NCBI GenBank assembly: GCA_030432925.1 | Contig: JAUILT010000012.1 | Location: 1-47,447 of the forward strand | Direction: 5' to 3' | DNA from: Bdellovibrionia bacterium | GTDB taxonomy: Bacteria; Bdellovibrionota; Bdellovibrionia; Bdellovibrionales; UBA1609 | Length of the DNA stretch: 47,447 nt | Shown here: piece by piece, positions 11,141 through 36,615 of the stretch | Numbering within the stretch: position 1 is the stretch's first letter | How the letters are laid out: every line of letters starts with the position of its first letter | Notes under the pieces: model-generated | The model's input: the letters and a program-made list of their open reading frames with translations, nothing else | The model's database searches: none | What the model was told of the DNA's origin: nothing | Position numbers and translations under genes: made by a program

Positions 11141-12691
11141 ATGCCGCTCGAGAGATCAACTCAACAAAAGATTCAGCAGTTCCTTCAGGAGAAACAGCTT
11201 TATCAATTAGGAATGCTAACAACTGAGCAAGGACATCCGGATACAAAAAACCTTTCTGAGTGGGCCAGTGGGGATTTAAAACAAGGGCTTCAGGCACTGC
11301 GGCAGGTAGATGTATTATCTTTAGAAAAGTTAAAGTCTTATTCAGAAAATATTTTTGAGATGACTCAAAAAATTCAGGACACTCTCAATAAGGGGCATCG
11401 GGTTTATTTGGGGGGGTGTGGAGCCACGGGTCGGCTTTCTATAGTGTTGGAGAGGATTTTTCGAGAGGTGTTTCCGGATCGGGCGGATCAGGTGATTGGC
11501 TTTATGGCCGGGGGAGATGTGGCTTTTGTTCATGCCATTGAAGGGTTTGAGGACTTTCCAGATTATGGCGCTCGGCAGCTCCAGGAATTAGGGTTCTCAG
11601 AAAATGATCTTTTTTTGGGAATCACTGAAGGAGGAGAAACCCCTTTTGTCATTGGGGCCACGGAAAAAGCCGCTGAGCTTTCTAAGCAGTCTGTCTATTT
11701 TTTATTTTGTAACCCAGAAAATGTGCTCAAAAAGTATGTGGAACGCTCACGGAAGGTTCTTGAAAACCCCAATGTGAGACCACTTTGCCTTGAAACAGGG
11801 CCCATGGCTCTTGCTGGAAGTACTCGAATGCAGGCATCCACAGTATTGATGATTGCTGCTGGCGTTGGCCTGATGCAGGGCTGGGGAGGAGCTAGTGATC
11901 TTGAAGCCTTTATTGATGGTTTAAGGATCTCGTTGAACGAAATTTGCCTGGACGAGTTGAAGCGATTTATCGAGTTAGAAGCCGACTGTTATCAAAATGG
12001 TGACAAGACCTTATACCTGGCTGATGAGTTTTCGGCTTCGGTATTTACAGACACTACAGAGCGAGCGCCCACCTTTAGCCTGGCTTCATTCGATAATCAA
12101 CAGAACCCACAAAGAGTCCATTCTCTGACCTATGTGACTATACCTGGAACCCACACTTCTGAAGAGGCATGGAAGCGTTTGTTTTTAAGGAGTCCACGAA
12201 CACTGGAGTGGAGTGAAGACTTTCAAAAAGCTCGATCTGAATATATGAGGGGTTTTGACTTTAGTGAAAAGGCCAGGGAGTGTCGCGAGCATTTAATTCC
12301 GGATCATCAGCATTTTGTATTTTCTATTGAAAAAACGGAAAAAGGGGTTTTATTTTCGTTTCGAAATCATCAGGCATTTTTTGAAATGCCAAAAGACATT
12401 TTTATCAGAAATCTTTTATTGAAAATGGTTTTAAATATGCACTCAACTCTTGTGATGGGTCGGCTGGGACGTTATGAAAGTCATTTTATGACCTATGTCA
12501 GCCCTAGTAATGGTAAACTGGTGGACCGAGCTGTTCGGTATGCTCGTAGTCTTTTAGAGTGGAGGGGGGCTGTTGTACCGGAGTATGATGATGTGGTTGA
12601 AACGTTATTGAATTTTCAATCTGAAATTCCAGTGAATGAATCCGTTGTATTAAAAACTGTGGAGCACTACCTTGCTACTTCTATGGCATGA
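11141..12691 (+). CDS. MurQ/GKRP-like SIS-domain sugar-phosphate protein
   Basis: A 516-aa protein related to N-acetylmuramic acid 6-phosphate etherase (MurQ) and the glucokinase regulatory protein. Matching segments are 'GGCGATGRLSIVLER' (sugar-phosphate loop), 'AIEGFED' (equivalent of MurQ VEGAED with the catalytic Glu), 'ITEGGETPFVIGA' and 'TGPMALAGSTRMQAST'. MurQ is about 300 aa. The extra 200 residues here resemble the second half of GKRP-type proteins. It may recycle or sense muramic acid phosphates released from peptidoglycan. The last 25 bp overlap the end of rny on the opposite strand. Enzymatic versus regulatory role is unresolved. Confidence 0.8.
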   Translation: MPLERSTQQKIQQFLQEKQLYQLGMLTTEQGHPDTKNLSEWASGDLKQGLQALRQVDVLSLEKLKSYSENIFEMTQKIQDTLNKGHRVYLGGCGATGRLSIVLERIFREVFPDRADQVIGFMAGGDVAFVHAIEGFEDFPDYGARQLQELGFSENDLFLGITEGGETPFVIGATEKAAELSKQSVYFLFCNPENVLKKYVERSRKVLENPNVRPLCLETGPMALAGSTRMQASTVLMIAAGVGLMQGWGGASDLEAFIDGLRISLNEICLDELKRFIELEADCYQNGDKTLYLADEFSASVFTDTTERAPTFSLASFDNQQNPQRVHSLTYVTIPGTHTSEEAWKRLFLRSPRTLEWSEDFQKARSEYMRGFDFSEKARECREHLIPDHQHFVFSIEKTEKGVLFSFRNHQAFFEMPKDIFIRNLLLKMVLNMHSTLVMGRLGRYESHFMTYVSPSNGKLVDRAVRYARSLLEWRGAVVPEYDDVVETLLNFQSEIPVNESVVLKTVEHYLATSMA

Positions 12692-14304
12692 GTTTCACGG
12701 ACAACGATCACTTTGATCAGGCCGGGATAGGACATCTCTTCTTCGATTTTTTGGGCAATTTTTTGACTGAGCTTCAAAGCACCTAGGTCATCCATTTCAC
12801 GGCTGTTGACAGAGACTCTCATTTCACGCCCGGCACTGAGAATATAAGTATCAGTGACGCCTGGAAAACTTTTGCCAATTTTTTCTAGGTTTTGCATTTT
12901 CTGGTGATAAGAGTCCATTGTAGAGCGCCGAGCTCCTGGCCGAGCCCCTGAGATAGCGTCTGCGGCAATAGTCAAGTAAGCCAAAGGTGTGCTTGGTTGC
13001 TCATCATAATGGTGGGCTCGGACAGCATGAACAATATCTTGGGCTTCGTTATTTTTTTCAATAAAATCCGCCCCAATCACAGCGTGGCCACCATCCTTGC
13101 TATGGTCCATAGCTTTGCCTATATCGTGAAGCATTCCTGCTCTGCGGCCTTTAACTACTTCAACACCTAGCTCTGAAGAGAGCAGCCCACATAACCAGCC
13201 CACCTCGGCGCAATGAAAAAATTGGTTTTGGGCAAAAGAGTAGCGGTAACGGAGTGCTCCCATCATGTTTTGAATTTCTTCTGATAGACCTTTGATTCCC
13301 AACTCTTTGGCAATGGCATGGCCGTCTTTACGGATTTTCTTAAAAAGATCTTTTTTGGTTTTACTAACAATATCATTGATCCGTTTTTCATTCAGATTTT
13401 TTTCGTGCATGAGTTTTTCAAGGCTGGCACGCCCCAGTTCTCTTCGAACAGGATCAAACCCCAGAACCTGGGCGTAAAGGTTTTCTTCATTGAGAGTGAT
13501 ATCTACTCCAGAAGATTTTTCCAAAAGGTCGATAAACTGACGCTCTTTTCCTACAGTTCTATGGAAGACATCTTTATTGGGAAAGTGGACATTGCCAATT
13601 CCACGCTCTGGGCAGTAGGGGCGGGCAAAGCGATTGAGTGCCAGGTTTAAAACTCTACGAGCATTTTTTTCAAGGTCCAGCTGAGCTTGGTTTTCCAGTT
13701 CCTGAATGTTTTTGTTCGTCTCTTCTTTAACTTCTGTGCAAAGCTTTTGTATCAGTGTTTGTTTTACGTCTTCTATAGATGTGTCGGCTACGGGCTGTAA
13801 GGCTTGACGATATTTTTCTAACAGTTGTTCTTTTTGCTCCTTAAGTCCCTCATATTTACTTTCGAGTTTTCGGATACGGTCTTCGTTGTCTTTTAGAATA
13901 TGTTTTTTCTTGTCGAGCAAAGATTGTTGACCTCGAAAGTGTGTGTTCAGCCGTTCTTTTCGTTCATCAAATTGAGTTTTAAGTTGCTCTACCTTTTCAG
14001 AGAGTTCATTGATAGCATCCTCATTTTTTTCTTCGAGTTGGGCAATGAACTCGTCGGTTCTTGCCTGAACCTCTTTGTGACGGTCCTCAGCAGCTTCTGA
14101 AGCTTGCTCGATCAAGTCATTAGCGGTTTGTTCTGCGTCTTGAATTTGACCCCGTAGAGCTAGATTATGCAGGTAAATATAACCACCAAATCCCAAAAAG
14201 AGACCCAGAGTTCCATAAAGCGCTGTTTCTGTTGTGAAAAATTCTAGTCCTAAAGTCATAGCGCCCCAGACTAGCACAGGATTTGTCAATGAGGTATGAA
14301 TCAT
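12667..14304 (-). CDS. rny: ribonuclease Y
   Basis: A 545-aa membrane-anchored endoribonuclease that starts mRNA decay. Order: an N-terminal membrane segment (about 27-45), a long coiled coil (about 50-230), a KH-like domain (about 245-320), an HD domain with the metal-binding 'MLHDIGKAMDH' (about 391-401), and the C-terminal region with 'SAGREMRV'. Length is close to the usual 520. The KH GxxG loop is altered: the family GREG is GKER here. No clear ribosome site precedes the first ATG. An in-frame ATG at 14259 has a GGGG-rich upstream region and could be the real start. It is divergent from the cyclic-nucleotide-binding gene. Confidence 0.9.
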   Translation of the reverse strand: MIHTSLTNPVLVWGAMTLGLEFFTTETALYGTLGLFLGFGGYIYLHNLALRGQIQDAEQTANDLIEQASEAAEDRHKEVQARTDEFIAQLEEKNEDAINELSEKVEQLKTQFDERKERLNTHFRGQQSLLDKKKHILKDNEDRIRKLESKYEGLKEQKEQLLEKYRQALQPVADTSIEDVKQTLIQKLCTEVKEETNKNIQELENQAQLDLEKNARRVLNLALNRFARPYCPERGIGNVHFPNKDVFHRTVGKERQFIDLLEKSSGVDITLNEENLYAQVLGFDPVRRELGRASLEKLMHEKNLNEKRINDIVSKTKKDLFKKIRKDGHAIAKELGIKGLSEEIQNMMGALRYRYSFAQNQFFHCAEVGWLCGLLSSELGVEVVKGRRAGMLHDIGKAMDHSKDGGHAVIGADFIEKNNEAQDIVHAVRAHHYDEQPSTPLAYLTIAADAISGARPGARRSTMDSYHQKMQNLEKIGKSFPGVTDTYILSAGREMRVSVNSREMDDLGALKLSQKIAQKIEEEMSYPGLIKVIVVRETHAIEVAR

Positions 14305-14439
14305 TACGGCATGTACTGAGATTGGGCCTTAAAATGCAATGCGTAAATCACCTATTTACAGTCTGATTTTCTTAAATTGAAGGGGAAAACTCTCCGATAG
14401 TGAGAATGGCATTTTGGGTCTATGAGGAGGAGCCAGACG

Positions 14440-15624
14440 TTGGACAAAGGTAAGCGCTACAAAAAGGGTGAGTATCTCTTTCAGGAAGGGGATCTGACAA
14501 AGATGCTCTACATTATTGAGAGAGGGCGTGTCATTCTCACAGTGGAGAGAAATGGTAAGAAAATTGAGTTAGCCACTATGAATAAGTCTCAAATCCTTGG
14601 AGAACAGTCGATATTCAGTAACGCTCGTCAAGGGTTCAATGCTGAGGCCCTTCAAGAGTGTCAAATTATGGAAGTGCCGGTGGACATGATTAAAGCTCAG
14701 TTTGCCACCTCTCCTCCGGGTGTGAAGTTGATTATGAAATCTCTTGTGGATGAAGTGCGGCAGGCTCGACAAGTCCTCCGGTCAATGAAAATGGCGCAAG
14801 ATTCTAGCCCCTGCCCTCAGGTATCTATCCCCAGAATTTTTTGTATTCTCAACTTGGTCACTCGGCATACTGGCAAGCTTTTGGAAGCCGTTCCGAAGGA
14901 TGTCGGACTTGGTGAGGGCGTTAAGGGAGAGGGATCGCCGACTCAGCGGTATAAAGTGGATTTTGGAACCATAAAACTATACACATCCAGAATGTTTGCA
15001 GAGTCCCCTCAGAGAATGAAAAACCTGGTGGATCTTCTGCAAAAGCTCGATTATCTGGAAACTCATTACATGAAAAATGATGATGGTGATGAGGAGCTGG
15101 ACCATGTAGTGATTAAAGACCTTCAGGCTATTGAGGACTTTGCAGAGTTTTATCAGTACAACTTGTACAAAGGAGGCAAGTCAGAGGTTATTTATGTGGA
15201 TATGCTGGCTTTTAAAGTGGCTAATGCTCTAGTGGAAATGTCCAAAGATCTGGAGATCGGGCATAAAGGGGCTGTCTCTTTGGATTATGATCAAGTGCTC
15301 AAGGATATGAAGGACACTTATAAGATGGACCTCAAGGCAACTCACCTGGATATTCTTGAAAAAAAGGGTTTATTTGTGCAAAGAGTGCCCAATGGCGATT
15401 CAAAGACAGATCTGAAGTTTGATAAGGTGGAGTTCCAGACGATAAATAACTGGTGGAAGATTATTTATGAGATCGATAAGTGGAACACTACGGGCTCTGT
15501 AGATGCGAATGAAAGCGTAAGCCTTTATGATGATGTGGTTAAGTCAGGATGCCCTGGTTGTAAGGGAGAGGTTCTTGATGAGCATAAATTTTGCCCGCAT
15601 TGTGGTTATAAAATGACTGCGTAA
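14440..15624 (+). CDS. cyclic nucleotide-binding domain protein with C-terminal zinc ribbon
   Basis: A 394-aa cytoplasmic protein. Residues about 1-115 are a CRP-type cyclic nucleotide-binding fold: 'KGEYLFQEGDLTKMLYIIERG', then the phosphate-binding cassette 'LGEQSIFSNARQGFNAEA' with Glu and Arg retained. The middle (about 130-360) is unrecognised and mostly helical. The C-terminus has two CxxC pairs (CPGC and CPHC), a zinc ribbon. The TTG at 14440 has GAGGAGGAG seven bases upstream. An in-frame ATG at 14422 lies in that site and is less likely. No CRP-type helix-turn-helix is obvious, so it may regulate a protein partner rather than bind DNA. Confidence 0.8.
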   Translation: MDKGKRYKKGEYLFQEGDLTKMLYIIERGRVILTVERNGKKIELATMNKSQILGEQSIFSNARQGFNAEALQECQIMEVPVDMIKAQFATSPPGVKLIMKSLVDEVRQARQVLRSMKMAQDSSPCPQVSIPRIFCILNLVTRHTGKLLEAVPKDVGLGEGVKGEGSPTQRYKVDFGTIKLYTSRMFAESPQRMKNLVDLLQKLDYLETHYMKNDDGDEELDHVVIKDLQAIEDFAEFYQYNLYKGGKSEVIYVDMLAFKVANALVEMSKDLEIGHKGAVSLDYDQVLKDMKDTYKMDLKATHLDILEKKGLFVQRVPNGDSKTDLKFDKVEFQTINNWWKIIYEIDKWNTTGSVDANESVSLYDDVVKSGCPGCKGEVLDEHKFCPHCGYKMTA

Positions 15625-15650: not shown

Positions 15651-18134
15651 TTAGCCATCTTTTTGTTTAGAGGCCGCATAGGTTTCTCTAAACCAATTAC
15701 GAGCAAATTTCATAAAACTTTCATTAATACCAAAATATAGAAGGTGGCACTTATATTTGAAGGGGCCATCATCTATGGGTTCTGTGGCGTAGAATCGTGC
15801 ACATAGGTTCTTTCGGGGGGCTTGGTCGTAGATACTTCCTCTTAAGAATAAAAAAGTGCCATTGGCGATCTGTGTATTAGAGGCCACTGTTCCACCAAAT
15901 TCTGAAATACTCAATAGAGTCATTGGTTTTGCAATGTGCACTGGCATTCTTGCGTCTAGCCAGCTCAGATTGTCGAAGTTATAAATAGAGTATTTATTAT
16001 TGGTAGCTAAGGAGATATTTAAAAGCAATGAACGGGTATCAAAGGGGGCCATCAAAGCGGCTCGAATATTTTTGTGTTGATAGGACTTAGGGCTAAGAGG
16101 GACATCATCACTACTAATAACAATGATTTTTAACTGTCTATCAGAAGGGAGCATATGATGGTCTTTGCACAGTTGAGTGAGGCCCTCTACCCAGGAGTTA
16201 ATGTCTTCAGGAACAAAGTGAGAGTCAATGACAAGAGCGTCCAGTGTTCCAATAGGGGCTTCAAGGAGAATTTTTTCTTTTAGAGTTTGGGCATTAGCTG
16301 GAGTGATCTCAATCTTAATGGACTCATCGGCGTTACTTTTTTCTAAGTGAAAGTGTACGAGACGGGTTTCCATAGACCCGTCAAATACAACAAAGGTTTT
16401 TTTAATTTGCCGCCCTTTGGCTGCAGAGTCTACAGCTTCTTCGAGCACCTCCTGTTCACTTTTCATGGGAAACAACAAAGAAACCCACTCATTGTTGTGA
16501 TCTAGAAGCTTTTGTGCCCTGTGCCCGAGGACTGAGTCAGTTTCGCTTTCAGGAGGCATGGGAGCTTCAATCGCCAGTGACTCCCTGTTGACAAAAAATA
16601 ATACGTTTCCTGATGGGCCTAAGTCATCGTCTGTTGTGGGTTTGACAGTTGCGAGATCGACCTTTCTCTCAGCATCTTGTCTTTTTTCACTTGAAAAGTT
16701 ATTCTTTAAGAACTCCTGGTAGGAGCCAACTCCCATCACTCGCATCTGATCAAAATTGTTATTGATAGTTTTAGATGTTTGTTGAAGTGTCAGTGCATCG
16801 GGTATTACTAAGACAACATTTTTTACTCTTTTTTCATCTTCAGTAAGAAAGATGTTGTCAGGATTATAAATGAATTCATTTTTATCTTCGGACTTCAGGC
16901 TCTGATACCTAGGATTTTGAGATAAATATTTTCTTACTTCGGTTAAAGTGGTCTTAGGAATAGCCACAAAACTAAAATAAACGATAAACTGTCGTTGCAA
17001 CTCTGGGTGAGGAATGGATGCCTGAACTTTTCCATAGACTTCGTATTCAAGCTCCTCTCCCGGGAATGTAAAAAAGAAGTGTCCCAGTAGACCAGGGGTT
17101 AAAGCCATGGGGTTTCGTATGCCAAAACCAATGTCTGAGATGTGTTCGATCACGGTTCTCTTTGATAAGTTCACTTGCATTTCTGTTTCTTGTTCAAACA
17201 GAAACCTTGGCTGAATCAATTCTGGTTGAGAAAGAATGATATCCACTTTTTGTAAAAACAATACGCGATCTAGAGGTAGATAAATCAAATCGTTGAGTTG
17301 AGGGTAAAGGAGGTCTACTTTTTGATGGCCGTCGTCTTCGTACTTTAACATGATAAATTTAGTGGCTCTTAGAGGAGGGCGAAAGCCAAAGTTTTCAATT
17401 TTTTTTGCAGTCTCTTTGAGCCAGCCTTTTTTGAAATCCTTGATTTGACTGAGTTTGAATAGAATCAGATCAATGTGAGCTAATAGATCTAGTTCAACAC
17501 CGTCTTCACTCTCTTGGTGAGATCGTTTAGCCACTTCTTCGTTAAAAATATTGCGAACACTTTCTGTATGATTTTCTATGTTTAGAGTCACCGTTTCATT
17601 GTTAGACTGTGTTTGAACATGGATTAACCAAAATTGACCGGTATCTCCTGAGGCCATGGGGAAGGTCTTCGCTTGAGATTGTCCTTCGGCAGCTTTTTGA
17701 ATCATATCTTTAAAGATGGGCTGGAAAGGGGTGCCAATGAGTTTTTCAAATGAATTGGGGGCGGCCTTGATTCCACCAACGGCCACTCCTAACAGAGGTG
17801 TTTCGGGAGGGAGATCTGGGTGGATGCTATTTATTTTTGCCGTGGGTACGTGGAGCTCTAAGGAGAGCTTTTCTTGTTCAAAGGGTTTATTTGTTTCGAG
17901 CTTTCTTTCTAACAGCCATTCTACATGAACGGATGTCCAGTCGTTTAAGGAGGGGAGTTCCTGTAGGGGGCTTTTACTTTCTTTTTGATTGGCTTTATTG
18001 AAGTACCGGGCTTCAAACTGCTCTTGATCGTCGAAGTAGCGAACTTTGTGCTCTTCTTCACTCAGCTCCCCCATGTATTGTTTGATTTGGCGCAATACTC
18101 GAGGGTCATTTTCGATGACAACAACACTAGCCAT
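15651..18134 (-). CDS. large degenerate receiver / PilZ-like signalling protein
   Basis: An 827-aa soluble protein of repeated signalling-like modules. The N-terminus (ASVVVIENDPRVLRQIK) resembles the acidic start of a response-regulator receiver. Residues about 310-405 (EHISDIGFG... then a beta-rich stretch) and about 715-815 (LLSISEFGGTVASN) resemble PilZ domains. About 610-710 looks like another receiver with the phospho-acceptor-like D in 'ALVIDSHF', but with the family Lys replaced (AALMAPFDTRS in place of KPF). PilZ c-di-GMP ligands (RxxxR, D/NxSxxG) are incomplete. The ATG at 18134 was preferred because the 16 residues encoded upstream look non-native. Domain calls are by pattern only. 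Confidence 0.65.
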   Translation of the reverse strand: MASVVVIENDPRVLRQIKQYMGELSEEEHKVRYFDDQEQFEARYFNKANQKESKSPLQELPSLNDWTSVHVEWLLERKLETNKPFEQEKLSLELHVPTAKINSIHPDLPPETPLLGVAVGGIKAAPNSFEKLIGTPFQPIFKDMIQKAAEGQSQAKTFPMASGDTGQFWLIHVQTQSNNETVTLNIENHTESVRNIFNEEVAKRSHQESEDGVELDLLAHIDLILFKLSQIKDFKKGWLKETAKKIENFGFRPPLRATKFIMLKYEDDGHQKVDLLYPQLNDLIYLPLDRVLFLQKVDIILSQPELIQPRFLFEQETEMQVNLSKRTVIEHISDIGFGIRNPMALTPGLLGHFFFTFPGEELEYEVYGKVQASIPHPELQRQFIVYFSFVAIPKTTLTEVRKYLSQNPRYQSLKSEDKNEFIYNPDNIFLTEDEKRVKNVVLVIPDALTLQQTSKTINNNFDQMRVMGVGSYQEFLKNNFSSEKRQDAERKVDLATVKPTTDDDLGPSGNVLFFVNRESLAIEAPMPPESETDSVLGHRAQKLLDHNNEWVSLLFPMKSEQEVLEEAVDSAAKGRQIKKTFVVFDGSMETRLVHFHLEKSNADESIKIEITPANAQTLKEKILLEAPIGTLDALVIDSHFVPEDINSWVEGLTQLCKDHHMLPSDRQLKIIVISSDDVPLSPKSYQHKNIRAALMAPFDTRSLLLNISLATNNKYSIYNFDNLSWLDARMPVHIAKPMTLLSISEFGGTVASNTQIANGTFLFLRGSIYDQAPRKNLCARFYATEPIDDGPFKYKCHLLYFGINESFMKFARNWFRETYAASKQKDG

Positions 18135-18256
18135 AGCCGCTTTCTTCAGGTGATGACTGCAGTTAACACCTCCATAATACAATGCTTTGCCAAAAAGAGA
18201 TTGTCTGTCATTGAAATCCTTCTCTTTGGTCGGGCTTTATGAAGAGGTCGTTAAAT

Positions 18257-18874
18257 TTATGGATAGAGCTCGTATGTATTCCATTGGTTGTTTTCCCAAG
18301 TAGATTCTACTCTTTGATGAAGGCGATTGGGTTGGGCCACCCAAAATTGATAACTCGTAGGGGTGACCTCGTAGCCTCCCCAGTTTTCAGGGCAGGGGAT
18401 GGGCTGATTTGCCCACTGATTCGCATAGGAGTTATAGAGTTCTTCAAGAGAGGTGGATTCGGCCAAAGGTCGAGATTGTTTTGAAATGCATTGGCTGATC
18501 TGACTTTCTCGGGGGCGGGAGTTCCAATAGTTCTCGGAGACTTTTCGGGAGGTTTTTGCTGCTGTTCCAAAAACATGCACCTGTCGCCCCAGGTGAGGCC
18601 AGTGAAAATTTACTGAAACCCTGGGGTTGGTTGCCAGATCCCTTCCTTTTTTTGAATCATAATTGGTAAAAAACACAAAGCCATTTTCGGTAAAAGACTT
18701 GAGAAGCACGACACGGGCAGAAGGAGACCCTTCAGGATCCACTGTGGAAACTGTCATGGCCGTTCCTTGGGTTTCTGGATTGTCGGCCTTTTCACAGGCC
18801 TCCTTGAACCAGGACTTTAATAAGTCTTGGGGGGATTGGATGCTTAACATTTGTTTCAGCAAAGAGTATCTCAT
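18257..18874 (-). CDS. pdxH: pyridoxamine 5'-phosphate oxidase
   Basis: A 205-aa FMN-dependent oxidase that converts pyridoxine/pyridoxamine 5'-phosphate to pyridoxal 5'-phosphate. Typical segments are 'MTVSTVDPEGSPSARVVLLK', 'GFVFFTNYDSKKGRDLA' (FMN binding), 'VSVNFHWPHLGRQVHVFG', 'YWNSRPRESQI', and the C-terminal 'WGGYEVTP...W...L.P' pattern. Length fits the family. The ATG at 18874 has no Shine-Dalgarno of its own. It overlaps the stop codon of a 7-codon leader frame (TGATG) that does have one, suggesting translational coupling. The receiver/PilZ-like gene follows 120 bp downstream on the same strand. Confidence 0.93.
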   Translation of the reverse strand: MRYSLLKQMLSIQSPQDLLKSWFKEACEKADNPETQGTAMTVSTVDPEGSPSARVVLLKSFTENGFVFFTNYDSKKGRDLATNPRVSVNFHWPHLGRQVHVFGTAAKTSRKVSENYWNSRPRESQISQCISKQSRPLAESTSLEELYNSYANQWANQPIPCPENWGGYEVTPTSYQFWVAQPNRLHQRVESTWENNQWNTYELYP

Positions 18875-18897
18875 CAAGGTTTCAAATACGTCGACAT
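18874..18897 (-). CDS. possible 7-codon leader peptide of pdxH
   Basis: An ATG at 18897, eight bases after the strong site AGGAGGG, opens a frame encoding MSTYLKP. Its TGA stop overlaps the pdxH ATG by one base (TGATG). pdxH otherwise lacks a ribosome binding site, so ribosomes terminating here could reinitiate on pdxH. This is inference. The alternative is a different true pdxH start or a frameshift. Confidence 0.35.
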   Translation of the reverse strand: MSTYLKP

Positions 18898-18922
18898 GAT
18901 GTGCGCCCTCCTAAAAAACAAA

Positions 18923-18946
18923 AGCGAGCTTTAAATAAAGCTCGCT
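18923..18946 (-). terminator. strong intrinsic terminator (bidirectional shape)
   Basis: AGCGAGCTTTA and TAAAGCTCGCT form an 11-bp perfect stem around a very short loop. Read on the minus strand it is followed by TTTTGTTTTTT, and it lies about 30 bp after the stop codon at 18977, so it should end transcription of that secreted-protein gene before pdxH. Confidence 0.85.
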
Positions 18947-18976
18947 TTTTGTCAAATTTAAATATGATGTGGGCTC

Positions 18977-19777
18977 TTAGATGCCGTTGGCAACAGAGGC
19001 ACTACCCAGGCTGCAGTTGCGGATCAATGTTTCTGCAGCATCTCTTCCATAACGTTTAGCGCGCTCAGGATTTACCTTTTGGTAAGCGTTCCAGATCAAT
19101 TCTTTATATTGAGCCGCAGTCATGGAAGTCTGTCCGCCAGCCAGTTCAGAAGCCGCAACCAGAATGTTTACAAATGGAGCTGCCAACTCAGGCTTAACAG
19201 CAGCACATCCGATACTTCCCAGAACAGGGGCACCACTTGGAAGTTTCACACTTTGTAAAAAATTGATCGCTCTTTGTCCGTCAGCAGCAAGACCAGGGTT
19301 AGAAGAACGCACTTGATTCAACATAGAATCAAAACCGCTATTTCCATCACAGGTTCCACCACCGTTAGCAAGATTGGCCATAGCGTCTTTTGCATAGTTA
19401 GTAGATGTCACGGCATCTGTGGCGCCAGAGGCTCCAATGGCTGTCGCCAGGTTGGCCATGATTGTGTCCAATTCTACGCTTTGGCTCATTTGTCGTCCAG
19501 CTTGGCTTAAAGCAGTTCTAAAAGCTGGATTTTCCTTAGCAAGGTTTGCAATCGCTGTTCTTCTCTCAGCAGCTGTCGCATTTTCTGCGGCTTTCAAAAC
19601 AGTCAGTTCACCTCTGCTGACAACAGAAGATGTTTCCATCATTCTTAGGAGAGATGCGTATTTTTCAGCGCTTGAAAGCACTCGAGTGGCTGTTGCACCG
19701 GGGTTGGCCAAAGCAGTTGTAGATACTAGGGCCAGTGTGGCCAGCATCATTAATAGAGTTTGGGTAAAACGTTTCAT
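18977..19777 (-). CDS. secreted Ala-rich protein of unknown function
   Basis: A 266-aa protein with a clear Sec signal peptide: basic start, hydrophobic core 'LLMMLATLALVSTTALA', and AxA cleavage near residue 24. The mature part is helical, rich in Ala/Ser/Asn, and has three Cys residues (C143, C188 and C254 by approximate count), perhaps for a periplasmic disulfide. I do not recognise a family. AAAGGA precedes the ATG, and a strong terminator follows. A TATACA element at about 19809-19814 on the minus strand may be the -10 box. It stands as its own transcription unit, consistent with an abundant secreted or periplasmic product. Confidence 0.72.
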   Translation of the reverse strand: MKRFTQTLLMMLATLALVSTTALANPGATATRVLSSAEKYASLLRMMETSSVVSRGELTVLKAAENATAAERRTAIANLAKENPAFRTALSQAGRQMSQSVELDTIMANLATAIGASGATDAVTSTNYAKDAMANLANGGGTCDGNSGFDSMLNQVRSSNPGLAADGQRAINFLQSVKLPSGAPVLGSIGCAAVKPELAAPFVNILVAASELAGGQTSMTAAQYKELIWNAYQKVNPERAKRYGRDAAETLIRNCSLGSASVANGI

Positions 19778-19808
19778 GGCGAAATTTTCCTTTCCAATTA
19801 TTTAACTG

Positions 19809-19814
19809 TGTATA
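19809..19814 (-). promoter_or_regulatory. candidate -10 element of the secreted Ala-rich protein gene
   Basis: TATACA on the minus strand, 32 bp upstream of the ATG at 19777. No well-spaced -35 hexamer is evident (the nearest, TTGCAT, is 20 bp away), so the assignment is tentative. The rest of the 19778-19964 gap shows nothing clear. Confidence 0.3.
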
Positions 19815-19964
19815 CCTCTAATGCTTGTTAGTTAATGCAAACCCTCGGCCAAGAAAGATTTTTAGTTTCCCTTGTAAATATTTGAAACCACTAGTCGTCT
19901 GGCGCTTCTAAGGGGCTGGAATGGAGTTGGAGCCGCAAAATGTCGCAATTTGCTCAAAAATAGA

Positions 19965-21758
19965 TCACTCGGCGGAGGGAGGGGTCAAAAGGGCCTCTAG
20001 CTGAACATAAAGGCCATGGCGTAAAGTCTTGATATTATTTGATATTTTTTGAGCTGCAGAGGCTTGCTCTGGCCGTTGGGCGGCTTGGGTTTGAAGCCAA
20101 AGGAGCACTTGATCTAGAAATACAACGGGGTTTCCGCAGTAGGATTTTCTAAGAATTTTTTCCTGCCACTGCTGTGTTGTTGTTTGAATGGACTGTTGGG
20201 CCAGGGATGGGGCATTGTCTTTGTGGTCTTCAAGAAAGCGTCCTGTCACATCCATCTGAACATAATCAACCATGGAAGCTGGATCGACCACAGGGTTAAT
20301 GATCTCTTTCATCCATTTTTCCACCGGATCGAGAGTTCCTTCTGGTCGGTAATAAATGGCATAGTGTTTAAGAATCATGGGGAGGTGGGGGGCACTTTCT
20401 TCCTGGTTTCCGATTTGTTCCAACCACTGATTGCGGAAAAACTCATATGAGCAAGAGCGAGCTCGTCGTTGAAAAAGAGTGTCGAAAGTTGTTTTTCTTA
20501 GCTTATTATTTAATCGAGTTTCTTTTTCAAAAAGCAGCTCCTCGAGATTTTCACTAGAAGTAGAAAGCTCTTGTTTTAATCCTTCCAGTTGTTCATTCAG
20601 GTAGATTTGTGCTCGTTCTTCCGCGTCTTTGTCTCCAGCCTCGGCTATTTTTTGAAACTCTCTCACCAGATTCTCAACAAAACGGACCCATTCTTGAAAA
20701 ACTCTTTGATCCGATTCCACTTCTGGTGTTTCCACGCCTGAGAGTTTTTGCTCCAACCACTGTATTTTTAGAGAAATCAGCTCGTCTTGCACCTCATGAA
20801 TTTGTTGCTGTTTTTCTGAGTACCGAGCCATACCATCATTGTTGTCATTGATTTTTTCAAAAATGGGAAGGATCAATCTTAGGGCATAGTTTTTAACGGC
20901 CGTTTCAAAAGCTTTATATTGTAAATCAATGTTTGAGTTGGAGCTTTGATCGTCAAGACCTTCCAGGCTTAAATGCTCCTGGTGGACACTTTGTTCTACC
21001 TGCACAACACTTTGATTGTCGGCCCATGCAATAATTCCTTCTGAGGCACCAATGGCCAGGGCTGTGATCAACAAACCCACTGGAGTGAACTTTAAAGGAT
21101 TTCCCTTGGAAACGGCTCTTATTCCTCGAGTGTTTCTTAAAATAAGAAGTCCTGCACCCGTGGTACCCAATGTTTCCAAAGTCGCTTGAATTTCTCGCAT
21201 CTGTTGATCCTGAAGAAATTCCTCCATAGAGACTGGCTCTAGCCTTTGCAAGACAGGGAGGTCAGAGAGAACGGATACCGGAGCTGGATAGGGAAGGTCA
21301 ATAGAGTCCGAATAAACATCTTTGGACCAGCGGATGCTGTTGAAATTCTCAGGTCCCGACTCCTCTGCGGGAGTGAGCACATTTACAAGAAAAATTAAAG
21401 GTACATATCGCCGAGAGGAATCTCTTAAGCGAGCCTGTCTCCAAAACCTGGGTGACATTTTGTATTCCCATTCTCTTTGGAACTTTAGTAGGGCGGATTG
21501 GCTTAAAATGGGGTCTGTATTCCAAAAGTTTTTCAAAAGATTCAGAGTTTTTTTGTACTCCGTGGATCCTTGAGAAAACAGCTGGGAAGTCACTTCATTG
21601 AGGGCATGATTTTTTTCGCTCACAATCATGCTGTGAGAGTTTTGCAGGAAAAGGTCCATCCGCTCAGAAACAAGAACGTTTTGCTGGATGACCCCTTCTG
21701 CAAAGCTGGAAAAAGGGGCGAGCATCGTAAAAATGAATAGGATGCCTCTGAAAATCAT
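19965..21758 (-). CDS. exported membrane-anchored protein, third gene of the exported operon
   Basis: A 597-aa protein with an N-terminal signal peptide (about 1-20, ending SSFA). Two hydrophobic stretches occur near residues 190-205 (TTGAGLLILRN) and 222-244 (FTPVGLLITALAIGASEGIIAW), followed by charged, coiled-coil-prone helices with many Glu/Gln (about 280-420), and a C-terminal helical region. I recognise no domain. Its ATG overlaps the upstream gene by 4 bp (ATGA), so translation is coupled. Together with the two upstream genes it probably forms an inner-membrane/periplasmic complex. The function is unknown. Confidence 0.72.
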   Translation of the reverse strand: MIFRGILFIFTMLAPFSSFAEGVIQQNVLVSERMDLFLQNSHSMIVSEKNHALNEVTSQLFSQGSTEYKKTLNLLKNFWNTDPILSQSALLKFQREWEYKMSPRFWRQARLRDSSRRYVPLIFLVNVLTPAEESGPENFNSIRWSKDVYSDSIDLPYPAPVSVLSDLPVLQRLEPVSMEEFLQDQQMREIQATLETLGTTGAGLLILRNTRGIRAVSKGNPLKFTPVGLLITALAIGASEGIIAWADNQSVVQVEQSVHQEHLSLEGLDDQSSNSNIDLQYKAFETAVKNYALRLILPIFEKINDNNDGMARYSEKQQQIHEVQDELISLKIQWLEQKLSGVETPEVESDQRVFQEWVRFVENLVREFQKIAEAGDKDAEERAQIYLNEQLEGLKQELSTSSENLEELLFEKETRLNNKLRKTTFDTLFQRRARSCSYEFFRNQWLEQIGNQEESAPHLPMILKHYAIYYRPEGTLDPVEKWMKEIINPVVDPASMVDYVQMDVTGRFLEDHKDNAPSLAQQSIQTTTQQWQEKILRKSYCGNPVVFLDQVLLWLQTQAAQRPEQASAAQKISNNIKTLRHGLYVQLEALLTPPSAE

Positions 21759-22972
21759 TGTGGCCCGACCTTCGCAGGGTCTCCCAGCTCTTGAATTTGT
21801 TGAAGAGCCGCTTCTGTCTCTAAGGCCATTTTTTCCAGCTCTTGATATTTTTCAGATAAATTGACCGAAGGACACAGGTCTGCCATTCCAGCAAACCATC
21901 CATCTGCGCGAGTCAATTCTTCAATTTGCATTTGATGACTTTTACTTCTATCGCTTGAATCTCTTTGATAGTTCAGAACGTGTTCATGGGCTCCAAACAA
22001 ATAAATCATCCGAAAAGATAAATCATTAATTTCTTCTTCCCGTTCTCTAAAAATTGCATGATTTTTTATAGTGACTTTCACACCTTGCATATCTTTAGTC
22101 ATGTCGCCCACTTGAGCGGCATATTGACAGGCCATTTCTGTTTGTACAATCTGCATGGCGAGCAACATATTGGCTCTGTAATGATTGGTATCAAGAAAAC
22201 AGCTAGAAGCAGATCTACAGGTGGCTCCTGTGACTGCGGCTATAGAGACGCTTGTTAAAAAACCAGATCGAGTGCTCCAGTAACTTTGAGGTTTGTAAGG
22301 AACTAAGGCCGTGCCTGTTGTTGATTGGCCAATGACGGCGGGCAGTTGGACTCGTTTTTTTCTAAAGTGGGGACGTCTCAACCACCTCATGATAGATCCT
22401 CGATTTTTTACAAGAGTATGAATCCCTCGAGCTCCAAGAAAGGCACCAATGCCCACGGCGAATCCATCAACAATTCGACCTCCTGTAGAAAGGCTGACAT
22501 TTTCATTTTCTAATTGATGCTTAATATATTGTCCATGGACAGGGTAGAGTTGGTCGATGGCCATTTGAAATGTCACATCAGTCATATATCTAGGTAGAAT
22601 ATAGTTGGTTAAAATATAGTTGTATTCAATGGCCGGAAGTGAAGCGAGGCTTTGCGCAAGACCTGTATTTTTGCAAAATGGTCCATCTCCAAAAATCAGG
22701 CAATCAATTTTAAGTTGAGGAATCAATGAATTCTCTAAATTCACGTCGCCGATGAGTCCCTTTAAGGACTCAGGGACAGGAGTGGTGTCTAAAGAGTCAT
22801 TACTTCCCCCAATGGCATCAACCAGTGTTTCAATGTTTTCAATCACTGCCTGGCCTTCAAGAGACAGTTCTTTCTCTACACCATTGAGTTCAATCACTGT
22901 TGGTGCATTGGCAAAGGTTTTGAACGATAAAACAAAACTAAAGAGTACGGCAGAGAGTATAAGAGACTTCAT
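21755..22972 (-). CDS. exported protein, second gene of the exported operon
   Basis: A 405-aa protein with a signal peptide (1-22, ending KTFA-NA). Hydrophobic segments lie near 165-185 (VDGFAVGIGAFLGARGI) and 236-252 (GFLTSVSIAAVTGATC). Between them is a basic loop (RWLRRPHFRKKR), which would face the cytoplasm if both are membrane spans. The C-terminal part is charged and helical with several Cys. No family is recognised. It starts at the stop codon of the 1201-aa gene and overlaps the 597-aa gene by 4 bp. The shared build (signal peptide, two mid-protein spans, helical periplasmic parts) suggests it interacts with both neighbours. Confidence 0.72.
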   Translation of the reverse strand: MKSLILSAVLFSFVLSFKTFANAPTVIELNGVEKELSLEGQAVIENIETLVDAIGGSNDSLDTTPVPESLKGLIGDVNLENSLIPQLKIDCLIFGDGPFCKNTGLAQSLASLPAIEYNYILTNYILPRYMTDVTFQMAIDQLYPVHGQYIKHQLENENVSLSTGGRIVDGFAVGIGAFLGARGIHTLVKNRGSIMRWLRRPHFRKKRVQLPAVIGQSTTGTALVPYKPQSYWSTRSGFLTSVSIAAVTGATCRSASSCFLDTNHYRANMLLAMQIVQTEMACQYAAQVGDMTKDMQGVKVTIKNHAIFREREEEINDLSFRMIYLFGAHEHVLNYQRDSSDRSKSHQMQIEELTRADGWFAGMADLCPSVNLSEKYQELEKMALETEAALQQIQELGDPAKVGPQ

Positions 22973-25900
22973 CAGAAAAGTCCTTTCTGAGGATCATACC
23001 CCAACCTTGGAGTTTTTCCATTGTCAGCATTTTCAATCATCTTTCGTGCCTTACCAGCGATACGGTCATAGATGATTCGATTTTCAACAGCATAGGCTTC
23101 GAGTTTCCACTTCCCTCCTCGTTCCACAATTTTAAATCGAAATCCGGTATCCAATCGGCTGAGCCAGTCATTTTGTTGTTTGACAGCAGCCCAGTCCGGT
23201 AGATCCATGGAAGAGGTCCAGCGAAATTCATTCATGGAAGATAAAAAGTCGGAGTGCATGGGGTGTTTTGGAGTTACACGAGCCACACCGGCGCGAGCCA
23301 CTTCAACGGCCTCTTGAGAGTTTTTATACCAATGCACTTGAGCACGGGCATGGGCAATCACATCGTGCATTTGGGACTGTTTGGTTTGATATTCCGTGTA
23401 AGAAATCAATTTGCTATGAAATTGAGATTCCCAGTGTCTTTGAACCTGAGCCAATCGGTTTTGATGGGCCCACCAGCCAGTTTCTGGACCGACAATTCGA
23501 GAATCCATTAAACCCAGTTCTTGAACCACTTTGCTCAAGTGGGGAGGGGGATTGACAAAGGCTTTGCCGATCACATCAAGCTCTTGTTCTATTTGAATAA
23601 ACTGTTGAGTGATGCGTGTTTTGAGTCTTTGTTTTTGAAGAATAGAAAGTTCTGATGAAGCATCAATTCTTCGCATCTGAGCTCGAAGCGATCCCTCTAA
23701 GTGTTCTCTCGTAAGGCTCCATTTTCCTGGCTGAAATCCCAGCCCAGTCTGTATAAACTCTTTATGTTTTTTTACAAACCCACCTGAGCGAGCAAAGTTT
23801 CTCATGTAGGCCCTAAACATGGCTCTAGCAGCAACAATACCAACCATAAAGCCGGCCAAAATAACACCTGTAATGAGCAGTTCATTACGTGCTTTTTTAT
23901 AGGCAAGGTGCTGCTTTTTCCAGTCTTCGGTTTTGACAAACGTAGTCCCATCATCAAAAGCAGAAAAATGATAGTTGGACAATGTGTTATCCAGTTGAGA
24001 TTCTTGGTACGTGTCTTGAATTTTTAGACCAAAGTATCCCAGAACAGCTGTCATTAAAACTATGGACGCAGACGCATAACTGGCGCCAAAAATAGGAGTC
24101 ATCAGTCGTTTTTCAAAACCACTGACTGTTTGTTGAAACCCCGGCGCGGCAAAGCGTAGGCCAAACTTAACCACTTGATAAAGAATGACTCCCCAGAAAA
24201 CAGGGTGAATAATATCTTCATAAAATTTATCAAACAAGGCTCGAGCCTGAGGCTTGTGGTTGTAAGTTTCAATGGCTTGTCTTAAATCAGTATCAAAGAA
24301 CGAATAGGTCTGAAGTGCCGCAGTATACAGTGATGTTGTCGCCAACAGCTGAATAATTATATGCTGATCATTAGAGCGTGTCTGTGAATGCATATCAAAC
24401 TGTCGACCAAGCCAGTGAATGATTTGAGACGCATTGGAGGACTCCGAAATCGTGGTTAGAGTCTTAAAAGTCTCATAGACCTTTTTTTCTGATTCCAAAA
24501 GTAAATAATCAAGTGCACAGGATTGTTGAGCGACAGTTTTAAAGTTGGGCCCAATTTTCCAAAGTGGTAAACCTCTAAGCCTTTCGTTTCTAGCATCTCC
24601 TAGGCAGCTTTGGTCGTGAATAGAACGCTCTGCTTGCATGACCAACATATGATTCATAGAGGCTGCTTTTTCTGCAAATGCCATTTGGTAAGACTTTTTT
24701 TCAGAACGACTCATATCAAGGTCGTCTAAGGTTAAGTTCACCAGTTCGGTGAGATCCACATTTTCACCGGAGGGGAGATTCATAAATACGGGGTTAAAGA
24801 AACCAAATAGATTTCCCGCTTCAAGAAGTCGAAGCATTTGTTTTCTTTGGCCACGATCTTCCACTTGGCTGAATGCATCAAAGAGGCTTTGATATTCGTA
24901 ATTGGCAGTAATATCTGCAACGGTTGATTCGGGAACTCCAATAAGTTCTAAATTGTCCATAATAAATTGATGGTAGCCTATACCAGCGGTGACAAAATCA
25001 CCCTCTCTAATAAGCTCATTAAATTTTCTCGCATGAAAGCCGCTTAAGCGAACATCTTCACCTCGAACTTGAGATAAGATCTCTAAATCTACAGGAAGAG
25101 TATCATCTGTTGTTATGTTTTGAATAGACAAGATATCCATATCTAGGCGGTCTAACATTTCCATTTTATTGTCGTAGAGAGCCTGTGGCAGGGCTTGAGC
25201 CTGTAGGTGTTGTAGGCGCTCTTGGCTGATGGGCAATTGGTTTTTAAGCTTTTCAATATAGCGATTTTTATTTTTGGATAAAATTTCAATCAGCTCGTTT
25301 CGTATTTCCACGAGATCCTGTGGTTCCCGGTGAGCACCATTGCTGGCAAAAATACGAATCTGACGGGTGACGGCTTCCATCGTAATGGAGTAGCGGGACT
25401 GGGCAAGGATTTCCAAAACTGTCTCTATGGTGAGACGTCCTTTGTAATTTGCAAGAAAAAGTTGATCTGCTTCAAATATTTGAGGAGCTTGTGCCGGAAG
25501 AGCTCCTTTTAAAACTTCTGTGAGATGATCTTTATGTGTATTTTGTGTTTGTTGTAAAGCTGCAATCATTTCGTTGGCAGCTTGGTCATCGATAAAATTG
25601 ACAATCAATGCGTCGGGGGTGATATCGGGAAGTGCCCATTCGTCGACCAGCATCTGACTTAATGTTTGTCGGTACAGATCCCATTCCTGATGCTGAACAA
25701 AGTATTTCAACCGAGCCAGTGGAGGAAATTTTTGTAGATTCTCTTGAATGGCCGGAATCTTTTGAGGATCAGGGAGGTCTCTTGTGCTTCGTCGAAGCAT
25801 TCCGTTCAAACGAGCAAGGTTCATATACTGCATTTTTAGAATGATAAATCGACTGTATTCAACAATATTTCCAGCATGGCGATATGCCATTTGGCGTTCT

Positions 25901-26577
25901 TCCACCTCGTCTAAAAAGCCTGGGTTCAAAGAGGTGGTCAAAACCCACCCTCCGTCAATCTGGGTCAAATCGGCATCAAATGGAGAGGTTGGATTGTTTC
26001 CCAGTTTAAAAAGATCTTTCACAAATGAGTGATGTCTGAGTGATGTTTGTAAATTCAATTCAATGCCATAGTCGGTGAGCCAATGGTCAGGGGAAATATC
26101 TACCTGATTGTATGCCTTCAGTGTCTCGAATCTTTGAACCAACTTGTAATAAGACAGAAATTGCGCTGCAACAGCATCGATGACAATTTCCTCGGCTTCA
26201 TTCACTGTTTCTACTTGGGCAAAACTAGTGCCTAAAAAGGTATTCAATCTTAATTGCAGTTCTTCTCGCAGTTGTTTTATTTTAATCTGAAGAGATCTTA
26301 GATCAGACCCGGCTGGTGTTGCTCCTCCGTTGACAAAGTAACTTTCCCAACTTTCCAGGGATTCCCCCATGTCTATGGCCATAGAAGAAAATGTATCTCC
26401 ATTAAAAAGAACGGGGAGAGTCACGGTGATTTCTCGAACAGTGTTGACGTCGTTAGCAGAGTCATTTTTAGAGGAGGTGGGCGCAGTGGCGTGCTCTTCA
26501 GATCTCGCAAATGCTGGAGCTGGGCCACCAAGAATCATCATGAAAGTTAGAATCTGTATTATTAGAGTTCTCATCAC
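22972..26577 (-). CDS. very large exported membrane protein, first gene of the exported operon
   Basis: A 1201-aa protein with a signal peptide (1-24, ending PAFA-RS). A long, mostly helical domain (about 30-780) should be periplasmic. Three membrane segments follow near 792-808, 825-848 and 895-917. The C-terminal 280 residues are basic and coiled-coil-like (EQELDVIGKAF, many Gln/Arg) and end close to 'LGYDPQKGLF'. No known domain is visible. The size and topology resemble scaffold proteins of envelope machines, but that is inference. It leads the operon, and its stop overlaps the next start by one base. A candidate promoter lies in 26578-26707. Confidence 0.72.
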   Translation of the reverse strand: MMRTLIIQILTFMMILGGPAPAFARSEEHATAPTSSKNDSANDVNTVREITVTLPVLFNGDTFSSMAIDMGESLESWESYFVNGGATPAGSDLRSLQIKIKQLREELQLRLNTFLGTSFAQVETVNEAEEIVIDAVAAQFLSYYKLVQRFETLKAYNQVDISPDHWLTDYGIELNLQTSLRHHSFVKDLFKLGNNPTSPFDADLTQIDGGWVLTTSLNPGFLDEVEERQMAYRHAGNIVEYSRFIILKMQYMNLARLNGMLRRSTRDLPDPQKIPAIQENLQKFPPLARLKYFVQHQEWDLYRQTLSQMLVDEWALPDITPDALIVNFIDDQAANEMIAALQQTQNTHKDHLTEVLKGALPAQAPQIFEADQLFLANYKGRLTIETVLEILAQSRYSITMEAVTRQIRIFASNGAHREPQDLVEIRNELIEILSKNKNRYIEKLKNQLPISQERLQHLQAQALPQALYDNKMEMLDRLDMDILSIQNITTDDTLPVDLEILSQVRGEDVRLSGFHARKFNELIREGDFVTAGIGYHQFIMDNLELIGVPESTVADITANYEYQSLFDAFSQVEDRGQRKQMLRLLEAGNLFGFFNPVFMNLPSGENVDLTELVNLTLDDLDMSRSEKKSYQMAFAEKAASMNHMLVMQAERSIHDQSCLGDARNERLRGLPLWKIGPNFKTVAQQSCALDYLLLESEKKVYETFKTLTTISESSNASQIIHWLGRQFDMHSQTRSNDQHIIIQLLATTSLYTAALQTYSFFDTDLRQAIETYNHKPQARALFDKFYEDIIHPVFWGVILYQVVKFGLRFAAPGFQQTVSGFEKRLMTPIFGASYASASIVLMTAVLGYFGLKIQDTYQESQLDNTLSNYHFSAFDDGTTFVKTEDWKKQHLAYKKARNELLITGVILAGFMVGIVAARAMFRAYMRNFARSGGFVKKHKEFIQTGLGFQPGKWSLTREHLEGSLRAQMRRIDASSELSILQKQRLKTRITQQFIQIEQELDVIGKAFVNPPPHLSKVVQELGLMDSRIVGPETGWWAHQNRLAQVQRHWESQFHSKLISYTEYQTKQSQMHDVIAHARAQVHWYKNSQEAVEVARAGVARVTPKHPMHSDFLSSMNEFRWTSSMDLPDWAAVKQQNDWLSRLDTGFRFKIVERGGKWKLEAYAVENRIIYDRIAGKARKMIENADNGKTPRLGYDPQKGLF

Positions 26578-26707
26578 AGGGACTCATAGGAGCAATCCAG
26601 AGACCATGATTTTTAAGGAAAAAGGGACAAATTGAGACTCAAACGAAATATATCAGCAGTAGAGCCCGTCAAAAAGTTCGTCAACTGTCAGTCAGTGCCG
26701 GAAAGGG

Positions 26708-27049
26708 TCAATAAACAATGGGCCCTACGGGCTCACCGCCAAGAATATGAAAATGCAGATGGGGCACTTCCTGGCCCCCATGTTGACCAATATTGGTGAT
26801 CACCCGATAGCCGGAGTTCTTGAGGCCAGCACTTTCAGCCACTTCTGTGACTTTCATCATTACGTGGCCCATCAAGGCTTGATCCTCAGGGGTCAAATCC
26901 GCCAGAGACAGGATCTCTTTTTTAGGAATCACTAGTAAGTGCACTTTTTTTCTAGGCTGAATATCTTTAAAGGCCATGCAATGTTCGTCTTCATAAACGA
27001 TATCTGCAGGGATCTCCTTGTCGATAATCTTTTTGAAAATGCTACTCAT
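26708..27049 (-). CDS. HIT-family nucleotide hydrolase (HinT-like)
   Basis: A 113-aa histidine-triad protein. It contains the family entry 'IFKKIIDKEIPADIVYED' and the catalytic triad H97-L-H99-F-H101 (HLHFHILGG). HinT-type enzymes hydrolyse nucleoside phosphoramidates and lysyl- or aminoacyl-AMP. Length and motif spacing are normal. It follows the ETF-ubiquinone oxidoreductase gene with a 3-bp gap, so they form one transcript. The functional link between them is not obvious. Confidence 0.92.
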   Translation of the reverse strand: MSSIFKKIIDKEIPADIVYEDEHCMAFKDIQPRKKVHLLVIPKKEILSLADLTPEDQALMGHVMMKVTEVAESAGLKNSGYRVITNIGQHGGQEVPHLHFHILGGEPVGPIVY

Positions 27050-27052
27050 AAA

Positions 27053-28699
27053 TCACATCTCCTTGTAGTTGGGGCCACTGCCTCCTTCGCGGGGACGCCA
27101 CCTTGGACCCAAAACATCTGTGGCCTTGCAGTCAACGCAGTTGGGGGCATTGACCACCAGTTGATCCCCTCGGCGCTCATAAACACCGGCTGGACAAAGG
27201 TGAGAGTAAAAATCGGCTATTTCAGGTGTAATATCCTGACCCACAGTCAGGTGCTGAGGAATATCATCTCGAGTCTTATTTCCAGATAAGTAGACAGCAT
27301 CTACTTTAGAAATACCTACAGGTTTGGAGAGTTTGTTTTCTTCACCAAAGAACTTCCACTCTTCGGCATCATCCATAGGGTGGTCCGAATCTCCGGGAAA
27401 GGCTCCGCCCGTCAGAGTCATCAGTGCGGCTTTCATTCCACCGGAATAAAAGCCGCCTTTAAAGGCCTGTCTCATATTGCGGACTTTTTTAAGGTCTTTT
27501 CCAATAAAGCTACTTTGGATGGCCGTATCATACCCGGAAAGAGCCTCTTTGGAGGTGTCTCCTCTCTTGAGAGCCTTGTAAATACTTTCGGCGGCAAGGA
27601 CCCCAGATTTCATGGCATAGTGAATACCCTTGAGCGCTGGCACATTCACCAGACCGGCAGCATCTCCTAAAACCAGCAGTCCATCACCACTGAGGGAGTC
27701 TTTGATGGCATTGTAGCCTCCCTCAGGAATGGTTTTAGCTCCCCACTCGACGCATTCGCCACCATCTAGAAGATCTTTAAATAAAGGGTGAGTTTTCATG
27801 TGCTGTAAAAGGTTGTGAACATCCAGGGTGCTGTCCCGGTAGTCCAACCCAGCCACCAGGCCAATAGAAACACTGTCGTCAGACAGTGGATACATCCAAG
27901 AGCCCCCAAAGACCTCTTTTGGAAGAGGCCAACCTAGGGTGTGTAAAATATGATCTGGCGCTTTTTTGACCTTCCAGACCTCTTTCACCCCAAGGGCATA
28001 AATCTGTGGGTACTTACTTTGGGTATTTTGTAGATCGTACCAGGCTTGGGCTAGGGAAGAGCGTGTGCCATCAGACAGTACTGTTATTTGAGCGGTTAAA
28101 TCTGTGGGCGGCATGTATTGGCCACCAGGTGTGCTATCACGGTTTTCTCCCATGGCCGTGGTCTGAACACCCACAACCTTGGAACCTTCTACGTACAGGG
28201 ACTGGGCTGGAAAACTGGGAAGAATATTAATGCCCAGTTCTTCGGCTTTGTCTCCTAGCCACCGTACTATTTCAGAAAGAGAAGCCGAGTAGTTGCCGGT
28301 ATTGTGCATAGTAGGAGGAGTTGGAATGCGCACAGATCCAGTTTCTGTCATTAACAAAACTTTTTCTCCAGTGACTTTCTTGCGAAACGGAAAGTCCTCG
28401 TCTTTCAGGTCAGGAAATAGCTCACGAAACACGACTGGGTTGACTACGGCTCCTGAAAGGGAGTGGCCTCCAAGAGTTTCTGACTTTTCCAGCACTCCAA
28501 TTTCAATATCTTCCATATCGGGATCATTTTTGACTTTTTGGGCCAGAGCGATGGCGCCAGAGAGTCCTGCAGGTCCTGCACCAACAAACAAAACATCCAT
28601 AGGGACGACATCTTCACCCTCGGGCGTTTTTCGCAGAATCAATTGGTCTGTGGGCAATTCTGTCTGAAAATTGGCTGGAACAAACTTTTTGTCATTCAT
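27053..28699 (-). CDS. electron transfer flavoprotein-ubiquinone oxidoreductase
   Basis: A 548-aa flavoprotein that passes electrons from reduced ETF (beta-oxidation) to the quinone pool at the inner membrane. The N-terminal FAD dinucleotide motif is 'VLFVGAGPAGLSGAIAL' (about 36-52). The GG-doublet region 'GVLEKSETLGGHSLSG' follows, then the quinone-binding region and the C-terminal ferredoxin-like domain. Iron-sulfur ligands visible are C502 (LCPAGVYE), C521 and C524 (NCVDCKATD). The fourth ligand, Cys in the mitochondrial-type NCxxCKxCD motif, is Thr527 here. The nucleotide reading was checked on the minus strand. It works with the thiolase in fatty-acid oxidation. Confidence 0.92.
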   Translation of the reverse strand: MNDKKFVPANFQTELPTDQLILRKTPEGEDVVPMDVLFVGAGPAGLSGAIALAQKVKNDPDMEDIEIGVLEKSETLGGHSLSGAVVNPVVFRELFPDLKDEDFPFRKKVTGEKVLLMTETGSVRIPTPPTMHNTGNYSASLSEIVRWLGDKAEELGINILPSFPAQSLYVEGSKVVGVQTTAMGENRDSTPGGQYMPPTDLTAQITVLSDGTRSSLAQAWYDLQNTQSKYPQIYALGVKEVWKVKKAPDHILHTLGWPLPKEVFGGSWMYPLSDDSVSIGLVAGLDYRDSTLDVHNLLQHMKTHPLFKDLLDGGECVEWGAKTIPEGGYNAIKDSLSGDGLLVLGDAAGLVNVPALKGIHYAMKSGVLAAESIYKALKRGDTSKEALSGYDTAIQSSFIGKDLKKVRNMRQAFKGGFYSGGMKAALMTLTGGAFPGDSDHPMDDAEEWKFFGEENKLSKPVGISKVDAVYLSGNKTRDDIPQHLTVGQDITPEIADFYSHLCPAGVYERRGDQLVVNAPNCVDCKATDVLGPRWRPREGGSGPNYKEM

Positions 28700-36614: not shown

Positions 36615-36615
36615 A

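Follow-up and report, generated by a model that had tools for sequence, protein, structure and literature searches.

A conserved operon of predicted exported envelope proteins in Bdellovibrionota, encoded in several relatives beside a putatively exported Hsp100-like ATPase

The window analyzed here, a 47,447-nucleotide stretch of a Bdellovibrionia bacterium contig, contains three large open reading frames, A, B, and C (proteins P0001, P0002, and P0003; Table 1), which all lie on the minus strand in the open reading frame list and thus read in the order 1201-405-597 aa. The sizes and the overlaps given in the original prediction stand, with A and B sharing 1 bp and B and C sharing 4 bp. An ATG at 26574 directly follows the GTG start of A and may be the true start, giving a protein of 1200 aa. 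The small gene D (P0004) lies 187 nt past C on the same strand and is followed just past its end by a terminator-like hairpin, and A-B-C-D is thus probably a single transcription unit; promoter matches for this operon are at chance level only. The original prediction was confined to the first three genes and lacked three further elements: D with its strong putative terminator, the fixed variable site at which the genes lie, and an exported Hsp100-type ATPase of relatives.

Table 1. Coordinates of the operon, its flanking genes, and the giant P-loop genes of related loci
Feature	Sequence	Positions	Strand	Description
Left boundary	Window	26708..28699	-	HIT protein and ETF-QO (core genes)
Gene A	Window	22972..26577	-	1201 aa; GTG start at 26577; signal peptide and helical N-terminal region of ~770 aa, then three hydrophobic segments and a C-terminal region of ~285 aa
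Signal peptide of A	Window	26506..26577	-	VMRTLIIQILTFMMILGGPAPAFA; called from heuristic and sequence
A hydrophobic segment 1	Window	24163..24213	-	aa 789-805
A hydrophobic segment 2	Window	24025..24075	-	aa 835-851
A hydrophobic segment 3	Window	23830..23880	-	aa 900-916; basic residues on flanks
Gene B	Window	21755..22972	-	405 aa; signal peptide; very basic loop with a weak hydrophobic segment on either side
Gene C	Window	19965..21758	-	597 aa; signal peptide; basic loop followed by a hydrophobic span; C-terminal part long and helical
Gene D	Window	18977..19777	-	266 aa; small and exported, with a Cys located 12 residues from the C-terminus
Terminator-like hairpin past D	Window	18920..18949	-	13 pairs, T tail
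Right boundary	Window	15651..18877	-	PdxH (18257-18877) and an 843-aa conserved flanking protein (15651-18182)
Giant P-loop gene	L223	13514-19003	+	Mutual profile probability of the three proteins 100%
Giant P-loop gene	L177	6242-11998	-	
Giant P-loop gene	L174	13061-17338	-	

The N-termini of A, B, C, and D all pass a Sec signal-peptide heuristic that most housekeeping genes of the window fail, in agreement with the signal peptides predicted earlier for the first three; these and the topology assignments are heuristic calls from a simple Sec test rather than from SignalP. The mid-protein membrane spans ascribed to all three proteins hold for A, which has three hydrophobic segments within aa 789 to 916 (best KD score, 2.58), and for C, with one clear span (aa 227 to 243; KD, 1.93), but not for B, in which there are only two weak segments (aa 172 to 188 and 236 to 252; KD, about 1.3). 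Many A, B, and C family members have basic stretches bordering their hydrophobic segments, and from the basic flanks of several of these segments together with the positive-inside rule the large N-terminal parts would lie in the periplasm. The hydropathy and charge pattern thus fits that of inner-membrane proteins facing the periplasm. AlphaFold2 models of A and B, built from two-row alignments, have pLDDT values of 32 and 35, too low for the models to be of use.

Neither A, B, and C nor members of their families match anything above the curated cut-offs in Pfam, NCBIfam, PHROGs, or PADLOC, and their matches in the PDB are at chance level only. These sequence and profile searches bear out the earlier view that the proteins have no recognizable domain and match none of the families known from secretion, motility, or transport, and they return no known system that would account for the operon. 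Several subthreshold similarities are taken to reflect composition, including FtsX_ECD for A (E = 0.094), TC1 and DUF matches for C, T3SS_HrpK1 for D, and a complex I subunit and a viral fusion glycoprotein recovered with the C profile, all of them weak or below the cut-off. Roles in anti-phage defense and a viral origin were also considered and rejected, as PADLOC has no match for A, B, C, or D and IMG/VR has none for P0001. We note that a TAM-like cluster is encoded elsewhere in the window (33672 to 41753), where the genes for TamB, a TPR protein, and an Omp85 protein with six POTRA domains adjoin one another. Like A, B, and C, the components of TAM/Omp85 envelope translocation are large exported envelope proteins, but those in the window are recognized as TamB and Omp85/POTRA, and A, B, and C match neither.

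A single-sequence search with P0001 finds no match in 148 relatives or in GTDB contigs, suggesting an orphan gene, a status overturned by synteny together with profiles. The flanking core genes lead to a remote A homologue of 1142 aa at locus L041 (22% identity over 321 aa; E = 9e-8), and iteration from this protein yields an A family present in at least 16 of 369 Bdellovibrionota genomes, a set that includes MAGs. Of these 16, 11 are seed members, full or partial, and the others are G319, G328, G345, G346, and G352; further matches occur in G146, where it is profile confirmed, and in G049, where it is supported by adjoining B and C genes. The A family spans six taxonomic families (f1, f4, f14, f16, f24, and f26), and at nearly every complete locus A adjoins B, C, or both, mostly with overlaps of 1 to 4 nt. 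The order is A-B-C at L098, L041, and L099, A-B at L178, L176, and L177, A-C-B at L217, L218, L223, and L174, and A-C at L220 and L173; at L221 the order is A-C-B with A and B each split into two frames, and at L045 A is followed by two genes that are candidates for B and C by size and position.

Profiles built without the window recover P0001 with an E value of 1.9e-23, P0003 with 3.2e-9 (probability, 96%), and P0002 with 1.3e-5 (probability, 80%), B being the weakest link of the three; these are pairwise hhalign E values, and the best among 90 unrelated control proteins are 0.0088 for A, 0.062 for C, and 0.072 for B. Weak matches to C in G142 and to B in G109 were dropped as chance, their loci not being A-B-C-like. 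The genes could in principle be unrelated, fast-evolving exported proteins brought together by chance at a tolerant site, as the weak similarity of the B and C families between lineages and the failed single-sequence search might suggest. However, all three proteins match positionally equivalent genes by profile with clean controls, and the translational overlaps are kept in families in which the module lies at other chromosomal sites, such that we strongly disfavor chance grouping and regard it as highly improbable. The joint conservation of all three in further families of the phylum shows that their grouping goes beyond chance. A-B-C is thus, with high confidence, a conserved module, and the survey of gene neighborhoods in Bdellovibrionota finds it as an operon in several families, rather than as genes scattered separately among relatives. 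Even without an ATPase, it constitutes a phylum-wide unannotated envelope operon, whose divergence (15 to 24% identity even within the family) concealed it from sequence search.

In the window's own family, the stretch from HIT/ETF-QO to PdxH forms a site of recurrent variation that is empty or carries either A-B-C or an alternative gene, X, on either strand. The comparison covers window positions 15651 to 28699 and loci L038, L039, L041 to L043, L045, L099/L100, and L111. The site is empty in one congener (L039, a contiguous stretch of an incomplete genome), large exported genes occupy it in L038, L041, L042, L043, L045, and L111, and its content switches between A-B-C, X, and nothing within one genus. 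The X proteins that replace A-B-C at some sites are 941 to 1507 aa long in the loci read; profile comparison detects no similarity between A and X, and we therefore do not claim that they are homologous. As to the flanking genes, the ETF-QO on three contigs titled Gemmatimonadaceae or Gemmatimonadetes (L118, L119, and L120) shares about 60% identity with its Bdellovibrionales counterpart, reflecting transfer, misbinning, or misnaming.

D adjoins A or X in most of the loci examined, and P0004 matches an X-linked D of another family (L060, 9956 to 10624; phmmer E = 2e-7). A cysteine lies within the last 25 residues in 20 of 20 D candidates, compared with 45 of 179 size-matched open reading frames, the motif having been noticed after the set was drawn up; iteration of the D profile gives no growth, and homology of D overall is not demonstrated. 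X profiles match in 83 of the 369 genomes, including G059, which is taken as Bdellovibrio bacteriovorus Tiberius. This strain has two X genes (L179, 7862 to 11455, and L180, 8794 to 11574), neither with a Pfam match and one adjoining a D-like gene, and the occurrence of a possibly related D/X pair in a culturable strain makes experimental tests feasible.

The rapid turnover invites the explanation that this is a hotspot of variable cargo, encoding secreted membrane-active proteins or adhesins that are directed at prey or rivals in an arms race and insert into the target membrane. The very fast divergence, the switching of content within a genus, and the hydrophobic segments of these exported proteins are all compatible with this, but the syntenic site is fixed, the gene set is conserved over several families, the basic flanks are consistent with insertion into the cell's own inner membrane, and neither a toxin-like domain nor an immunity gene is seen. 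We consider such a role unlikely.

The best functional clue is provided by a ClpB/Hsp100-like AAA+ ATPase encoded beside the module or X in several families. These ATPases are present at L041/L109 (909 aa), L042 (827 aa), L038 (1075 aa), L043 (835 aa), and L100/L099 (891 aa) in family f1, L185 (1100 aa) in f5, and L173 (1194 aa) in f16, with X rather than A as the neighbor at L043, L038, and L185. The L041 protein matches Pfam AAA_2 (E = 5.6e-40) and ClpB_D2-small (3.5e-7), and the L109 protein (12093 to 14822) matches ClpC (9e-50), ClpB (2e-48), and Plasmodium HSP101 (2e-35) in the PDB; the L173 protein is weak by Pfam alone (E = 0.004) and is recovered by the exported-family profile (97%; E = 4e-11). 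By the heuristic, all seven copies with a complete start have a signal-peptide-like N-terminus, and the canonical ClpB proteins of the same and related genomes have none. Each exported copy has exactly one intact Walker A/B pair, in NBD2 at L041, L100, L038, L185, and L173 and in NBD1 at L042 and L043, the other site being degenerate. The pore loop is kept as GYVG, GYVD, or GYSG in NBD2 of six copies and as YRGE in NBD1 of L042.

A second, giant P-loop family (1400 to over 1900 aa) lies beside A in f14 (L174/L177) and f4 (L223); the complete start of the copy in f4 is signal-peptide-like, and those at L174 and L177 are truncated at contig ends. By eye, the exported AAA+ protein of G219 (L173, 6300 to 9884, minus strand) has a C-terminal stretch resembling an FtsH/M41 peptidase with the motif HETEGH, which is one residue longer than HExxH. 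G100 codes for a Clp-like AAA+ protein of 991 aa in which both nucleotide sites are intact (L189, 7318 to 10293, plus strand), located among small genes and away from the A-B-C sites.

In the window's genome (96% complete), the AAA+ matches are to ordinary ClpB, ClpA, and others, and no exported ATPase was found on the contig or elsewhere in it, so its module either lacks a motor or uses an unrecognized one. ATPase genes are similarly missing beside A-B-C in G012, G319, and G328, and a motor is thus not obligatory. It is plausible, if rather less than probable, that A-B-C-D forms a static, ATP-independent scaffold in the envelope or periplasm, for which the long helical regions would be suitable, with the ATPase an optional accessory or a separate chaperone in some relatives. 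Against this, at least two kinds of ATPase turn up repeatedly next to A-B-C or X across several families with motifs intact, and this recurrence and integrity are unlike those of an incidental neighbor.

We tentatively favor a different reading, to which we would give somewhat less than an even chance, namely that A-B-C, with D, forms the membrane core of a previously undescribed machine of the envelope, one that would remodel or move proteins and be ATP powered in many relatives. We infer a physical complex in which A, B, and C would be exported by Sec and then retained in the inner membrane, their large helical parts mainly periplasmic, and A probably ending in a cytoplasmic C-terminal domain; the weak hydrophobic segments of B count against its place in such a core. 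In many relatives, the core or the alternative X is encoded beside the putatively Sec-exported Hsp100/ClpB-like ATPase, which may thread and unfold protein substrates on the outer face of the inner membrane; the machine as a whole would remodel, extract, or translocate a presumptive cargo of envelope or prey proteins. The window carries an A-B-C-D version without a recognizable ATPase.

The ATPase of relatives shares with the ClpB/Hsp104 disaggregases the two-NBD AAA+ arrangement, the coiled-coil-rich middle, ClpB_D2-small, the Walker motifs, and, in most copies, a GYVG-like pore loop and an arginine finger. It differs in its signal peptide, in having no Clp_N in Pfam and one intact nucleotide site of two, and in its presence in operons with exported membrane proteins. 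Type VI secretion also combines a ClpB-like ATPase, ClpV, with membrane proteins, but ClpV is cytoplasmic, in contrast to the signal-peptide-bearing ATPase of relatives, and no match to a sheath, tube, or TssJLM-like family was found in the loci searched. We know of no bacterial system with an exported Clp/Hsp100 unfoldase.

The main problem for an ATP-powered envelope machine is its energy source, as the periplasm is normally without ATP and is taught as ATP free; an ATPase that did work outside the cytoplasm would mean a surprise either in what fuels it or in where the reaction is assumed to occur. ATP from prey might be the answer, and a 1986 paper by Ruby and McCabe, cited in PMC4834554, reportedly describes ATP transport by a system of B. 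bacteriovorus 109J. A lineage with cells that grow inside other cells, with host ATP maybe at hand, is a natural place for an exported ATPase.

The Plasmodium PTEX translocon consists of HSP101, PTEX150, and EXP2 (PMC7355975). As in PTEX, an exported Hsp100 ATPase is encoded with exported membrane-associated partners, here in a lineage that includes intracellular predators, but the partner proteins have no detected sequence relation and HSP101 has two active NBDs; PTEX unites its ATPase and a membrane pore in one complex, whereas the observation in the relatives is one of gene adjacency. By analogy, the A-B-C or X membrane complex and the exported Hsp100 motor might constitute a convergent extracytoplasmic protein translocon of predatory bacteria, in which prey ATP drives the threading of proteins through a membrane within the invaded cell and of which the window version would have lost or replaced the motor, a speculation that we consider quite improbable.
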